Shown here: positions 53,412 to 58,917 of the stretch, in pieces
Position numbering within the stretch: position 1 is the first letter of the stretch
Layout of the letters: each line of letters starts with the position of its first letter
Assembly: GCF_019455445.1 (NCBI RefSeq)
Contig: NZ_JAHWUS010000001.1
Span: forward strand, 1,073,856-1,137,855
From: Pseudaquidulcibacter saccharophilus
GTDB lineage: Bacteria; Pseudomonadota; Alphaproteobacteria; Caulobacterales; Aquidulcibacteraceae
Reading direction: 5' to 3'
DNA length: 64,000 nucleotides
The notes under the pieces: generated by a model
The model's input: the letters and a program-made list of their open reading frames with translations, nothing else
Database searches by the model: none
What the model was told of the DNA's origin: nothing
Program-made: the position numbers and the translations under genes

Positions 53412-53437
53412 AAAAGGCGGCTTAAAAGCCGCCTTTT
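53412..53437. terminator. Bidirectional terminator after mnmA
   Basis: AAAAGGCGGCTT and AAGCCGCCTTTT form a GC-rich stem around a short AA loop, with flanking A and T runs. It separates mnmA from the converging lipoprotein gene, whose stop is four bases away. Confidence 0.9.
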
Positions 53438-53441
53438 CAAA

Positions 53442-54494
53442 TTATTTCTTTTTCGGAGTTGTTGTCTTTTTGACAGGTGCTGCCGGTTTTGAATCTTTGA
53501 ATTTAATTGGAATAGTAACCGAAGTTGCACTCTTTTCTTTTTTAACAAGTGGTTTTGGATAACCAACAGCTTCGGCAAAGCAATTTTTCATTTCGTTTTG
53601 ACCATGCTCAGAAATACAGAATGCGTGTTCAAATGGGAATTTGGTTGCCGCCATACACATTCTTGAGTTTAAATAGGCGCGGTATGCACATGATTGGCCC
53701 GAGCCAATTTTCATAGTTGAAAGCACTTCACGATCCGCGCGCAAGATGCGCAAAGCCGCAGCAGCCATAATATCATCATTAACTTCGGCAATTGGTGTTG
53801 CAGTAACAACATCACCAGCAGCATTTGCGGTTTGTGTTGGATTATAGCTTATAGTTTTTGGATCAAAATCAGATTGTGCGAGTGGAACTTCCCAATTTGA
53901 AGCCATTTTATTTAGATGGATTTGTTTGTCTTGTGGAACTTTTGCCCATGAAGTCAGCTGCAAATCATAAGCGGCTTTTTTTACAATTGCTGATGCACTA
54001 TCAATTTTTGCGAACTGCTCACCAACTGCGGCACCAGCATAGGTTTTTGCCTCTGAGTAACCAGGTATAGAGCGAACCATTGATGGGTTGGCAGTGATTT
54101 TGGCAATCATGCCATCGCGGCCATAAGATGCACCAATTTGTTCAATACCATTACGGAACGCTTGTGAATTTGCGGCAGCAAGAATTGCATATGCTTTTGC
54201 GCCGTCAATTGTTTCGGTGCGGCCTAGAAGAGGTGCGTTATCAATTGAATTACCAATATTTACAGCTGTTGAAAGATTAGGCGAAGTTGCTGAATTGGTT
54301 GCGGCATTGGCAAATTTTGGCAAATAGCCAGCAATATTAACCAAGCTAGTTGAAGATGGTGTTTCAGGCATATTTGCAGGAATAACACTTGGTTTTTCGA
54401 CCACTTTTGGCGGTGGGGCAGGAGACGCGCCATCATCACATCCCGTAAGCGCCGCAACAGATACTGTTAAAACTAAACCAATTAACTTCTTCAT
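53442..54494 (-). CDS. Uncharacterised lipoprotein with C-terminal four-cysteine domain (paralogue 1)
   Basis: I do not recognise a named family. The 350-residue protein starts at ATG 54494 with GGAAGG upstream. It has a lipoprotein signal ending ALTGC and a Pro-rich linker. A helical core shows DGAKAYAILAAANSQAFRNG, YSEAKTYAGAAVGEQFAKID and AKVPQDKQIHLNKMA. The C-terminal segment has the cysteine pattern C-x10-C-x12-C-x11-C (from SCAYRAYLNSRMC to MKNCFAEAV), which would suit two disulfides. A Lys/Ala/Pro-rich tail ends the protein. It shares core and cysteine spacing with the secreted protein at 55863-56825, on the far side of nhaA. Envelope location is clear; function is unknown. Confidence 0.8.
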   Translation of the reverse strand: MKKLIGLVLTVSVAALTGCDDGASPAPPPKVVEKPSVIPANMPETPSSTSLVNIAGYLPKFANAATNSATSPNLSTAVNIGNSIDNAPLLGRTETIDGAKAYAILAAANSQAFRNGIEQIGASYGRDGMIAKITANPSMVRSIPGYSEAKTYAGAAVGEQFAKIDSASAIVKKAAYDLQLTSWAKVPQDKQIHLNKMASNWEVPLAQSDFDPKTISYNPTQTANAAGDVVTATPIAEVNDDIMAAAALRILRADREVLSTMKIGSGQSCAYRAYLNSRMCMAATKFPFEHAFCISEHGQNEMKNCFAEAVGYPKPLVKKEKSATSVTIPIKFKDSKPAAPVKKTTTPKKK

Positions 54495-54590
54495 TACAAT
54501 ACCTTCCAAATGTGATTCAAAGCAGACCACAAGTAAAACTCAAATCAACCTATAAAATAATTCTTCATAAATGATAATATTAAAAATTCA

Positions 54591-55769
54591 CTACGCTTTT
54601 TCATTACTTTTTGCTAATAATGCAATTCCAATAATACCTGAAATGATTGAGCCTAAGAATACACCCATTTTCAATTCATTGCTTATTATTTCTCCTTTAT
54701 CAGCATAACTAAGACCACCTAAAAATAGGCTCATGGTAAAGCCGATGCCGCATAATGCCCCGACACCTAATAATTGCCTCATGGTGATATTTTCCGGAAT
54801 GCGTGCAATCCCAATTATTTTTGAAAAATAAACCATGCCCAAAACCCCCAAAGGCTTGCCGATAGAAAGGCCGCAAACAATTGCCACAACTAACGGGCTT
54901 AGAATTGTTGAAATTCCCATACCGCTGAATGAAAATCCAGCGTGGGTTAATGCGAATAAAGGCATAATTGCATATTTTACCCATGCAGAAAAATCATCAT
55001 GCAAATCTTCTAATGGGCTTTCAAAAGCATCGCTGTTTGATTTTAGGGGAACGGTAATTGCTGTCATTACCCCTGCTAAGGTTGGGTGAAAACCACTTTG
55101 TAACATGAATGCCCACATCACAAGCCCACCCATAACAAAAACCCAAGGACGGCGAATGCCAAGACGTGGTAGTGCTAGTAAAACAACAAAAATCCCCAAA
55201 GACCATGAAAGCGCAACATAATCGATATTGCTGCTATATAATGCCGCAATTAGAACTACGGCCCCCAAATCATCAACAACGGCAAGTGTTAATAGGAATA
55301 TTTTAAGGCTTGAGGGAATGTTTTTTGCCACGACGGCAATTGCCGCAACGGCAAAGGCGATATCTGTTGCAACCGGGATTGTCCATCCTTTTATTAAATC
55401 CTGATGACCTTCAAGCATTATAACTGCAATGAAGATAAGTGCCGGCATAATCATTCCGCCCAATGCACCAAAGACGGGTAACGCTAGTTTTTTGGCATCC
55501 GATAATTCGCCTTCCATAATTTCTTTTTTAATTTCCAACCCGACATGAAAAAAGAAAATCGCCATTAGGCCGTCTTTAACCCAATGCTTAACATCCGCAG
55601 TATGCGACCATGTGCCGATTTGTACAGGTATTTCATAATGCAACCAATTATCAAATGCCCCAGAAAGTGGGGAGTTGGCAATGATAATTGCAATCAGCGC
55701 GCTAATGCCAAGTGTAATACCGGCGGCGGCTTCTAGTTCAAAAAAATTACGGATTTTTTGTAAAGGCAT
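54591..55769 (-). CDS. nhaA: Na+/H+ antiporter NhaA
   Basis: NhaA expels sodium in exchange for protons and sets intracellular pH. The 392-residue protein has about twelve membrane segments. The diagnostic motifs are GLMAIFFFHVGLEIKKEI, VPVATDIAFAVAAIAV-like PVATDIAFAVAAIAVV carrying one transport Asp, and LTLAVVDDLGAVVLIAALY with the Asp-Asp pair. The cytoplasmic end is short. It sits between two paralogous secreted proteins on the same strand. Confidence 0.96.
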   Translation of the reverse strand: MPLQKIRNFFELEAAAGITLGISALIAIIIANSPLSGAFDNWLHYEIPVQIGTWSHTADVKHWVKDGLMAIFFFHVGLEIKKEIMEGELSDAKKLALPVFGALGGMIMPALIFIAVIMLEGHQDLIKGWTIPVATDIAFAVAAIAVVAKNIPSSLKIFLLTLAVVDDLGAVVLIAALYSSNIDYVALSWSLGIFVVLLALPRLGIRRPWVFVMGGLVMWAFMLQSGFHPTLAGVMTAITVPLKSNSDAFESPLEDLHDDFSAWVKYAIMPLFALTHAGFSFSGMGISTILSPLVVAIVCGLSIGKPLGVLGMVYFSKIIGIARIPENITMRQLLGVGALCGIGFTMSLFLGGLSYADKGEIISNELKMGVFLGSIISGIIGIALLAKSNEKA

Positions 55770-55862
55770 AATATCTCTTTGGCATGAACATAACTCAATT
55801 AGCCAAAGAATTATTATAGCTTGCGGTCAACTAATGCAACCAAAACCGAACGCAATTTTATG

Positions 55863-56825
55863 CTATTTTAATGCCTCGATTGAACACGCATTGGTTTCGC
55901 TATATGCATGTTTTGCAAGGCAATAAGTGTGTTCATATGGATAACGACTTGCTGCAAGACACATTTTTACATTTAAAAATGCACGCTTTGCACATGGTTT
56001 ACCAGACCCCAATGAAAGGGTTTCAAGCGCGCTTGAATTGTCTTTCAATTGCATCATAACTGCCGAAGCCATAATTCTATCATTAATGATAATTTTATCG
56101 CTGCCGCTATTATTGAACATATCACCGTTTATATCAGAATATACCAATGGCTTTTCTAAACTGGCATCAACTTCTAAAAGATGGCGTTCTTTATCTTGCG
56201 GCAATTGTGACCATTTATACTTTTGGATATCGTATGACGATTGCAAGATAGTCTGGCTTGAGGTGTCAATTTTATTGAATACAGTTTCCAGTGAATTTGC
56301 CGCATAAGACTTGGCTTCAGCATAGCCTTCAATATTACGTACCCATGATGGATTATACTTTAAGATTTGTACAAGGTTATTTGCGCCAACCTCTTGTGCC
56401 ATTTTTGAAATACCAAACACAAAATTTTGATTTCTTGTGGCAACAATTGCGGCAAAAGCTTTTGAGCCATCAATAATTTCTGGACGGGTATAATATGATG
56501 AATGGTCAATTGATGTGGCTATGGTTTCGGGTGAAGAAAGATTTTCAGAACGTGCAGCCCGACTGGTTTCGGCAAAAAATGCGGCAAAATTACCTGCAAG
56601 GCTATATATAGCGTCTTGTGTGACATTATTTTGTTCAATTGGCGAAGAATTAACGGAATTGGCGATGATATTCATAGGTTTTTGCACATTTGTAAGTGCG
56701 GCCATTTGCGTAGTGGTTGGCGAAAAAATATCGGAAGTTTGATTTACATTCTGCGCGATTGTGAGTTGTGACATAGCAGTTGCAACAGCCAAGGTTCCGA
56801 AGAAGTAAAATATATTCTTGCCCAT
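55863..56825 (-). CDS. Uncharacterised secreted protein with C-terminal four-cysteine domain (paralogue 2)
   Basis: A 320-residue exported protein, paralogous to the lipoprotein at 53442-54494. It has a cleavable signal (FFGTLAVATAMSQLTIAQ) rather than a lipobox. Shared core blocks are DGSKAFAAIVATRNQNFVFG, YAEAKSYAANSLETVFNKID and SQLPQDKERHLLEV. The same C-x10-C-x12-C-x11-C pattern is seen from PCAKRAFLNVKMC to NACSIEALK at the very C terminus. The two copies are well diverged outside these blocks, so the duplication is old. No domain of known function was recognised. Confidence 0.8.
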   Translation of the reverse strand: MGKNIFYFFGTLAVATAMSQLTIAQNVNQTSDIFSPTTTQMAALTNVQKPMNIIANSVNSSPIEQNNVTQDAIYSLAGNFAAFFAETSRAARSENLSSPETIATSIDHSSYYTRPEIIDGSKAFAAIVATRNQNFVFGISKMAQEVGANNLVQILKYNPSWVRNIEGYAEAKSYAANSLETVFNKIDTSSQTILQSSYDIQKYKWSQLPQDKERHLLEVDASLEKPLVYSDINGDMFNNSGSDKIIINDRIMASAVMMQLKDNSSALETLSLGSGKPCAKRAFLNVKMCLAASRYPYEHTYCLAKHAYSETNACSIEALK

Positions 56826-56996: not shown

Positions 56997-57026
56997 AAAA
57001 AGGCCAAAGGAGTTTATCCTTTGGCC
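56997..57026 (-). terminator. Terminator after the second chemoreceptor
   Basis: GGCCAAAGGA and TCCTTTGGCC form a perfect ten-bp stem with loop GTTTA. Read on the minus strand it ends in five T. It lies 33 bases after the chemoreceptor stop. Confidence 0.9.
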
Positions 57027-57059: not shown

Positions 57060-58739
57060 TTATGAAGCCCGCAAGAATTGCGTGAAGCTTGCAACTTCTT
57101 TGTTAAGTTCATCGGTTTGCCTTGACAAGTGATCCGCCAATTGCATCATATCTGCTGAAGCGGCGCCTGTTAGTTCTGCAGCGCGGCCAACCCCGGAAAT
57201 GTTTTCGGTAACTTCTTGGGTTCCATTTGCGGCCATTGACGTATTGCTGGCAATTTCACTGGTCGCAGTTCCTTGTTGTTCAACAGATGCGGCAACACTT
57301 GAAGATACGCTTCTGATTTCACCAATGGTTCTAACAATCTTTTCAATAGATGCCACAGAGCGATTGGTTGCATTTTGAATGCTTGTAATTGCCGTGCTAA
57401 TTTCTTCGGTTGCCTTGGTGGTTTGTCCCGCGAGGGTTTTAACCTCTTGGGCAACAACAGCAAAACCTTTCCCAGCTTCACCGGCACGCGCCGCCTCAAT
57501 TGTTGCGTTAAGGGCAAGAAGGTTGGTTTGTTCTGCAATCTGATTAATCAAGCTAATTACATCACCGATTTTTGTTGCAAGTTTTGCAAGTTCTGTAATT
57601 TCGCGTTCTGAAATATCGGCCTCCATGGAGGCTTCATCAGATACTTTTGCAGCAAGTCGCATTTGCTCTGAAATTTCTTTAACCGAGATTGATAATTCTT
57701 CGGTTGCAGACGCAACATTTTGAACATTTTGCGACGATTCTTCTGCTGCAGAAGAAACCGCCATTGACTGTCTTGAGGTTTCTTCTGCGGTGGCAGATAG
57801 ATTGTTTGATGCTTCGGTAAGTTCTGCAGAAGACTTCACAAATGCTTCGGTAATTCTTCCCATTTTGGCTTGGAACTGGTCAGCGATTGCATGGCGTTCT
57901 TGAATAATTTTTTGTGCGTTTAACTCTTCTTGACGCGCCGCATCTTTACGAAGTTGTTCTGCTTCTTTTAAATTGTCGCGGAAAACCAATAATGTTTTCG
58001 CCATGTCGCCAATTTCATTATTATTTTCAGTATATTCAACCTTGGTATCAAGTTCACCACTGGAAATCTTTTGCATAGAATTCTTGGTAACATCCAACGC
58101 ATTGATAACTTGTTTATTGACGAATATGATTGAAATAATTGTTAATAACGCGCCAACAATTGATACACCCAAGACAGTAATTATTGCCGTAATGAATGAT
58201 TTTTGCGCAGTTTTATAATCGTCAGCGGCGCCTTCTTTATTTAAGTTTACGAGTTTCAACAAGGTTGCAGAATAATTGTCAAATTCATTGCGTAATTGGG
58301 TTTTATATTGTGCCGCTGCTTGTTCGTTCATGTTTTGGCGTGAAAGAACCAAAACTTGTTGTTCTGCTTTAAGATAATTTGAATAATCTTTTTTAAATGA
58401 ATTATATAATTCGCGTTCTTTATCAGATGAAATCAAAGGCTCATATTTTTCCATCAATGTTTTGATATCAGCTTTTCTGGCCTTTATGTCGTCTTCTGCA
58501 CGCTGCATATCTTCTGCTGTTGTGCTCATGATATGGGTGCTTTCCGCAATTCTGAGGTCAGAGGTTGCGGTATTTATTTCTTCTGTAAGTTGGATTGATG
58601 GCAACCAGTTATTTGAAATATTTTTAACGTTATTATTAGTATTATTAACCAAATAAAGGCCAACGGCGCCCGTGATTATAATCATCATCAGTAGCGCCGA
58701 CATGATGGTGAAAAGTGTTTTCTTAATTGTGAAACTCAT
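57060..58739 (-). CDS. Methyl-accepting chemotaxis protein with four-helix-bundle sensor
   Basis: A 559-residue chemoreceptor. Start ATG 58739 follows GGGC; an in-frame start 17 codons earlier is less likely. Membrane segment 1 is [19 protein letters not shown] and segment 2 is [20 protein letters not shown]. The periplasmic part (about 32-180) is all helical, in the 4HB_MCP style ([20 protein letters not shown]). HAMP and the signalling tip follow ([40 protein letters not shown]). It differs in sensor from the Cache receptor at 7339. The C terminus has no CheR-binding pentapeptide. Confidence 0.94.
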
Positions 58740-58917
58740 AATTCTGCCCTTGTACAAAATAATGGACAAAAGTGAGTATATAAGAAACATTTAATAATAG
58801 ATGAAATACATACGTAAAAATCGTAATATATACTATAAAATATAGTTTTTTGTCAGATTTTATACTTTTGTATATATATGGTTACCAATGAGAAACTATA
58901 AACTCATGGTAAATGAA

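Follow-up and report, generated by a model that had tools for sequence, protein, structure and literature searches.

CHCH (twin CX9C) proteins carry a spaced cysteine pair on each of two successive helices, joined by two disulfides, and such disulfide hairpins are used in the mitochondrial intermembrane space. NhaA and NhaD are unrelated families of Na+/H+ antiporters, and the order Caulobacterales, to which the cell-cycle model organism Caulobacter belongs, contains lipoproteins and secreted proteins that are uncharacterised. For the cysteine spacings, an excerpt of PMC12114033 gives CX9C-X13-CX10C for COX6B1 and CX9C-X10-CX10C for COA6. Here, we describe a locus in a stretch of 64,000 nucleotides (the window) from Pseudaquidulcibacter saccharophilus, contig NZ_JAHWUS010000001.1, in which the antiporter gene nhaA is flanked by the genes of two paralogous, predicted envelope proteins, A and B, each with a four-cysteine tail. 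The name Aquidulcibacteraceae has been proposed for the family clade of this organism, according to a section of PMC12700997. The tail spacing of A and B, CX10C-X12-CX11C, is close to the CHCH spacings but is not CX9C, and the predicted hairpin differs from CHCH proteins in being the tail of a larger, apparently exported bacterial protein. The two proteins are neighbours of an antiporter, not transporters themselves, and across the genus the pair is placed around NhaA or NhaD. They would be envelope proteins of the same kind as the uncharacterised Caulobacterales ones, from a family spread through the order, and differ in belonging to no curated family.

The three genes are on the minus strand, in the order of B (55863-56825; 320 residues, predicted secreted), nhaA (54591-55769; 392 residues) and A (53442-54494; 350 residues, predicted lipoprotein). 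The product of nhaA matched PF06965 with an expectation value (E) of 5.3e-128 and TIGR00773 with 374.9 bits, where the cut-off is 254. The open frame of A spans 53442-54530, with the ATG at 54494 as its likely start, and the protein ends in a Lys/Pro-rich C-terminal extension. A and B were aligned by BLASTP over 286 columns with 34% identity, 185 bits and an E of 1e-60, so their likeness is not due to chance, and they were the only family copies found in the window's genome at E <= 10. Paralogy had been proposed in an earlier note made from the sequence alone, and the core blocks cited there are present as IDGAKAYA and PQDKQIHL in A, and as IDGSKAFA and PQDKERHL in B. The identical C-x10-C-x12-C-x11-C spacing claimed for the tails (53568-53714 in A and 55872-56018 in B, minus strand) is confirmed by the cysteine positions, namely 269, 280, 293 and 305 in A, which has a further lipobox cysteine at 19, and 278, 289, 302 and 314 in B. 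Both proteins combine this exact tail with a match to the full-length family profile (E 1.5e-97 for A and 4e-83 for B), values that arise by construction since the two sequences were part of the alignment behind the profile.

By the motif rule, A qualifies as a lipoprotein, as its hydrophobic signal sequence leads into a lipobox (LTG|C, cysteine at residue 19), but the Pfam model LPAM_1 scored 11.8 bits, below its cut-off of 20. Throughout the genus, the downstream copy (A side) has a lipobox in five of five genomes, and the upstream copy (B side) has a signal-peptidase-I type N-terminus in four of four, both calls resting on motif and hydrophobicity rules. By these rules, the division into one lipoprotein and one secreted protein, which the earlier note had drawn for the window, would apply to the genus as a whole.

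In the alignment of 66 family rows, 61 keep the exact tail spacing; among the other five, the last spacer is longer in three, two cysteines are missing from one, and a run of N interrupts the remaining one. The four cysteine columns hold cysteine in 65, 64, 64 and 65 rows, and G120, A129, F135, A171, Y198, Q201, W205, E298 and H306 (B numbering), together with the four cysteines, are each kept in at least 55 rows. AlphaFold predicted B as an all-helical domain, with a predicted local distance difference test score (pLDDT) of 85.1 and a predicted template modelling score (pTM) of 0.77. Mean pLDDT values were 88-98 per ten-residue block from residue 71, with a poorly predicted N-terminal part before it, and the model of a member from Candidatus Phycosocius (pLDDT 81.8; pTM 0.77) agreed with that of B. 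The last two helices of the B model comprise residues 276-292, which hold C278 and C289, and 296-319, which hold C302 and C314. The position sums of the outer and inner cysteines are nearly equal (278+314=592 and 289+302=591 in B; 319+355=674 and 330+343=673 in the second model), so that the first and fourth cysteines, and likewise the second and third, would come to lie opposite one another in an antiparallel hairpin. This geometry, which was read from helix positions in the two predicted models, points to nested disulfides C278-C314 and C289-C302 in B, and a disulfide-linked helical hairpin is likewise predicted for the tail of A.

Both predicted models place the cysteines suitably for a CHCH-like nested hairpin. 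No CHCH-type Pfam family was among the matches at E <= 1 of 25 family members, and the likeness of the tail layout to mitochondrial CHCH proteins is probably the result of convergence. If the prediction holds, the tail would bring the disulfide-hairpin layout of the mitochondrial intermembrane space into the bacterial envelope. Fold searches of the PDB with Foldseek returned best E values of 0.52 and 0.084, with none at E <= 0.001; the top rows, which included many pore-forming proteins with long helices, had template modelling scores below 0.25 and were taken as chance. The best Z value from VIA-align was 5.6, which according to its notes is common for helical models, and the best E in a viral fold library was 0.22. 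Absence of a significant fold match does not prove a new fold.

Sequence databases were equally uninformative, in keeping with the earlier note, in which no known family had been recognised. Pfam and NCBIfam contained nothing above cut-off for A or B, and no family in either was matched by more than two of the 25 members at E <= 1. Weak names such as PDZ_6 (E 0.0036), PRK08303 (E 0.005), LPAM_1 (E 0.012), arginine deiminase (E 0.015) and others were each restricted to one or two of the 25 members and were rejected. Searches of PDB sequences with B and with the tail profile yielded no match, and the four matches obtained with the 25-member profile, the best being GpsB at E 0.37, were not credible. 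Among viral contigs, 11 stretches fitted a peptide pattern, none of them encoding a relative. Narrow literature searches showed no paper on the family, although one may still exist.

Members were found with a single sequence in 52 of 61 genomes, its own included, and the profile added one of the nine misses. The tail profile matched 142 of 150 Caulobacterales genomes, the eight misses being six genomes from genus g24 of family f4, a seventh from that family, and G008, in which the body is present and the tail spacing is altered. All six sampled g24 genomes (G051, G055, G059, G301, G309 and G317) are without the tail, which represents a natural loss. In a sample of the class, 13 of 190 genomes matched, three of those in Caulobacterales; in a sample of the phylum, 10 of 299 matched, all in Caulobacterales, with a scan that scored at most six candidates per genome and may miss weak members. 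Named matches (43 loci) include Aquidulcibacter, Candidatus Phycosocius, Terricaulis and strain UKL13-1. A and B belong to an unnamed and uncurated family that is rarer outside Caulobacterales and near-universal within Caulobacter's order, yet lacks a curated name, a relative whose structure has been solved and any significant likeness to known folds.

The settings of the family were compared in 60 stretches, each at most 20 kb long, that surround its members, with the genes clustered by BLAST. At the commonest site, the family gene has a histidine kinase on one side and SufE on the other, with the kinase immediately divergent in 33 of the 60 loci, SufE at most four genes downstream in 39, and both present in 29. 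HisKA and HATPase_c domains were found in all three kinases scanned, with PAS in one, and the best match of the only kinase scanned in NCBIfam, that of locus L142, was the cell-cycle kinase DivJ, whose 212.6 bits fall well short of the cut-off of 1000. In family f3 of the order, the gene adjoins prs in six of seven loci, most of which have rplY or pth further on, and the kinase adjoins it in none of the seven. In genus g6, genomes such as G033, G031 and G018 have one copy at the kinase/SufE site and a second one (loci L037-L040) before a gene that we take to be dehydrogenase-like, followed by mreB, mreC, PBP2 and RodA, which suggests a tie of these second copies to cell elongation. The family has been duplicated repeatedly in different places. 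In genus g12, the tail profile found extra copies in seven of 12 sampled genomes, amounting to 10 further members, and in six of the seven, all but locus L216, these have lspA and a gene for a class I tRNA synthetase (probably ileS) nearby, with one gene of each kind tested. These g12 members are divergent and occur alone or in tandem, at L213 7596-9541, L214 8699-10766, L215 7971-9874, L216 9215-10126, L217 9143-10039, L218 9234-10178 and L219 8069-9133.

In the window's genus, the commonest site is empty: the kinase and SufE adjoin without a family gene between them in four of four genus genomes examined, and the pair is located after cobS-cobT. The mreB stretches of three genus genomes contained no family gene. 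In a quick tree with long branches, which included four genus rows of odd letter composition, the genus copies joined the mreB-linked g6 copies with a support of 99 in the Shimodaira-Hasegawa-like approximate likelihood-ratio test, the genus alone receiving 97. Grouping of the upstream copies as one clade was neither rejected nor shown (p value of 0.293 in the approximately unbiased test), and the downstream copies formed one side of a branch supported at 76/88, which was not starred and again involved long branches.

Between the two copies lies a slot for an antiporter. It is occupied by NhaA in G000, G002 and G004, and in G003 NhaA stands beside the remaining copy; these four are the only ones of the 60 family loci with NhaA. 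In G001, no NhaA match was found, in contrast to the other nine of the ten genomes searched, and the two family copies flank instead an NhaD of 427 residues, encoded on the opposite strand. This protein matched TIGR00775 with an E of 6.6e-114 and 380.9 bits, below the cut-off of 577.1, NF038006 with 155.9 bits, above the cut-off of 80, and CitMHS in Pfam. It was the only NhaD at E <= 1e-30 in the 150 Caulobacterales genomes, and none of 14 control genomes had one at that threshold. We interpret this as an in-place exchange of one antiporter type for another, in either direction. The presence of an unrelated antiporter in the slot of this gene pair amounts to a natural experiment on the partnership between the pair and its antiporter.

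The earlier note had assumed that both copies are kept around nhaA, and this fails in G003, the closest relative of the window in the set, in which only a 39-residue remnant of B, containing a stop, is left. The DNA of G003 matches the window at ~85% on both flanks of this remnant. As B has been lost there, the pair is not indispensable. The split copy in G004 is not read as a frameshift, since its junction holds a run of N. Nor is the stop reported for the profile match in G053 taken as the mark of a pseudogene, as intact matches, B among them, likewise gave one stop with that profile, probably their own stop codon.

Taking these results together, we tentatively favour an explanation that may well prove wrong as a whole, namely that the family is a structural envelope family and that the genus pair around the antiporter slot is tuned to antiporter use. 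A and B would be exported, all-helical and non-enzymatic envelope proteins, with the C-terminal hairpin locked by the two nested disulfides. Lipid-anchored A and soluble B, placed around a slot that is filled by NhaA or, in one species, by NhaD, would constitute a structural envelope factor made of an anchor and a soluble partner, which might support the envelope during antiporter activity under salt or alkaline load. Among the loci seen, the link to nhaA is confined to one genus, where it seems less of a coincidence than would be expected from gene order by itself. Several observations weigh against this explanation. Neither NhaA nor NhaD is present in the other 55 loci, and the five loci with either are all from the window's genus. 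NhaD in the slot was seen once, in a single draft genome, with no counterpart in the control genomes, and its gene is on the opposite strand to both copies, so there is no operon in that slot. The loss of B in so close a relative, the long branches and odd-composition rows of the tree, and a terminator scan near chance level (see below) point the same way. In addition, nhaA of genus g6 is near cobS without a family gene (in the order CNNM/HlyC, nhaA, bolA, dnaJ-like, cobS), so the proximity may partly be old gene order. However, g6 NhaA is only 37.5-39.6% identical to genus NhaA, compared with 57-95% within the genus, so simple retention of that order is not certain. The hint of an ion role that the earlier note had drawn from the pairing with nhaA thus does not stand as a general rule, given NhaA in four of 60 loci and housekeeping genes in the other settings, but it gains from the NhaD found between the copies of NhaA-less G001. 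Similarly, homologues never found near nhaA, named there as grounds for refutation, describe the 55 loci outside the genus and not those inside it.

The family might instead be a general factor of envelope or cell-wall growth without an ion role, its neighbourhood with nhaA being a rearrangement accident in one genus. This appears possible, if rather doubtful: it accommodates members in five settings (kinase/SufE; prs; before mreB-mreC-PBP2-RodA; lspA/tRNA synthetase; cobST/antiporter), the g6 nhaA near cobS and the lost B of G003, but two unrelated Na+/H+ antiporters in one slot, with NhaD in no other genome of the order sample, are hard to expect from random rearrangement. We regard as unlikely the stronger proposal that the lipid-anchored/soluble, CHCH-like pair is a dedicated Na+/H+ antiport accessory module serving any antiporter between its genes; if true, NhaA and the unrelated NhaD would be exchangeable in the slot without loss of the partnership. 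More improbable still is a periplasmic, signal-side subunit of the divergent histidine kinase, with the other copies as later uses of the fold. The frequency of the kinase at the commonest site, often with SufE downstream, and the distant DivJ match of the L142 kinase argue for it, but the kinase stays beside SufE in the four genus genomes examined, none of which has a family gene there, and the f3 genes beside prs have no adjoining kinase. A redox or metal-handling protein, with reactive or metal-binding rather than structural cysteines, we consider very improbable. It would account for the near-invariance of the cysteines and of tail residues E298 and H306, as well as for the SufE neighbour; against this, the cysteines are spaced along the two helices of the models as expected for a nested pair of structural disulfides, neither A nor B has a CxxC motif, and SufE is cytoplasmic, whereas the family appears to be exported.

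A general antiporter link through Mrp genes, which occur in 21 of the 60 loci, was also examined and rejected: 19 of the 39 SufE-linked loci are without Mrp genes in the fetched stretch, so Mrp proximity was treated as local gene order.

The transcription context of the locus was inspected with a consensus scan for terminators, which is weak, as it listed 6 terminator-like sites versus 4.5 (standard deviation 2.3) in shuffles. A palindromic hairpin of 11 pairs (53412-53437, no strand assigned) directly follows A and a convergent gene that is presumably mnmA-like, and a second hairpin of 10 pairs (57002-57026, minus strand) is located between a chemoreceptor gene and B. In the B-nhaA and nhaA-A gaps of 93 and 96 bases, this weak scan listed none. 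A common transcript of B, nhaA and A is only plausible, because the sites barely exceed those in shuffles. The chemoreceptor gene (57060-58790; 4HB_MCP, HAMP and MCPsignal domains) lies directly upstream of B in the window; in G003 it adjoins nhaA, and it is not at that place in the other three genus genomes.

A second uncurated protein was observed near the kinase/SufE site (L052 6779-7600 and L142 7622-8449); Pfam gave no match for either copy, and NCBIfam none for that of L052. Finally, two f3 genomes carry tandem family copies downstream of prs (L071 9226-11777 and L076 9372-11739), and eight of nine f3 rows are lipoprotein-like by the motif rule.

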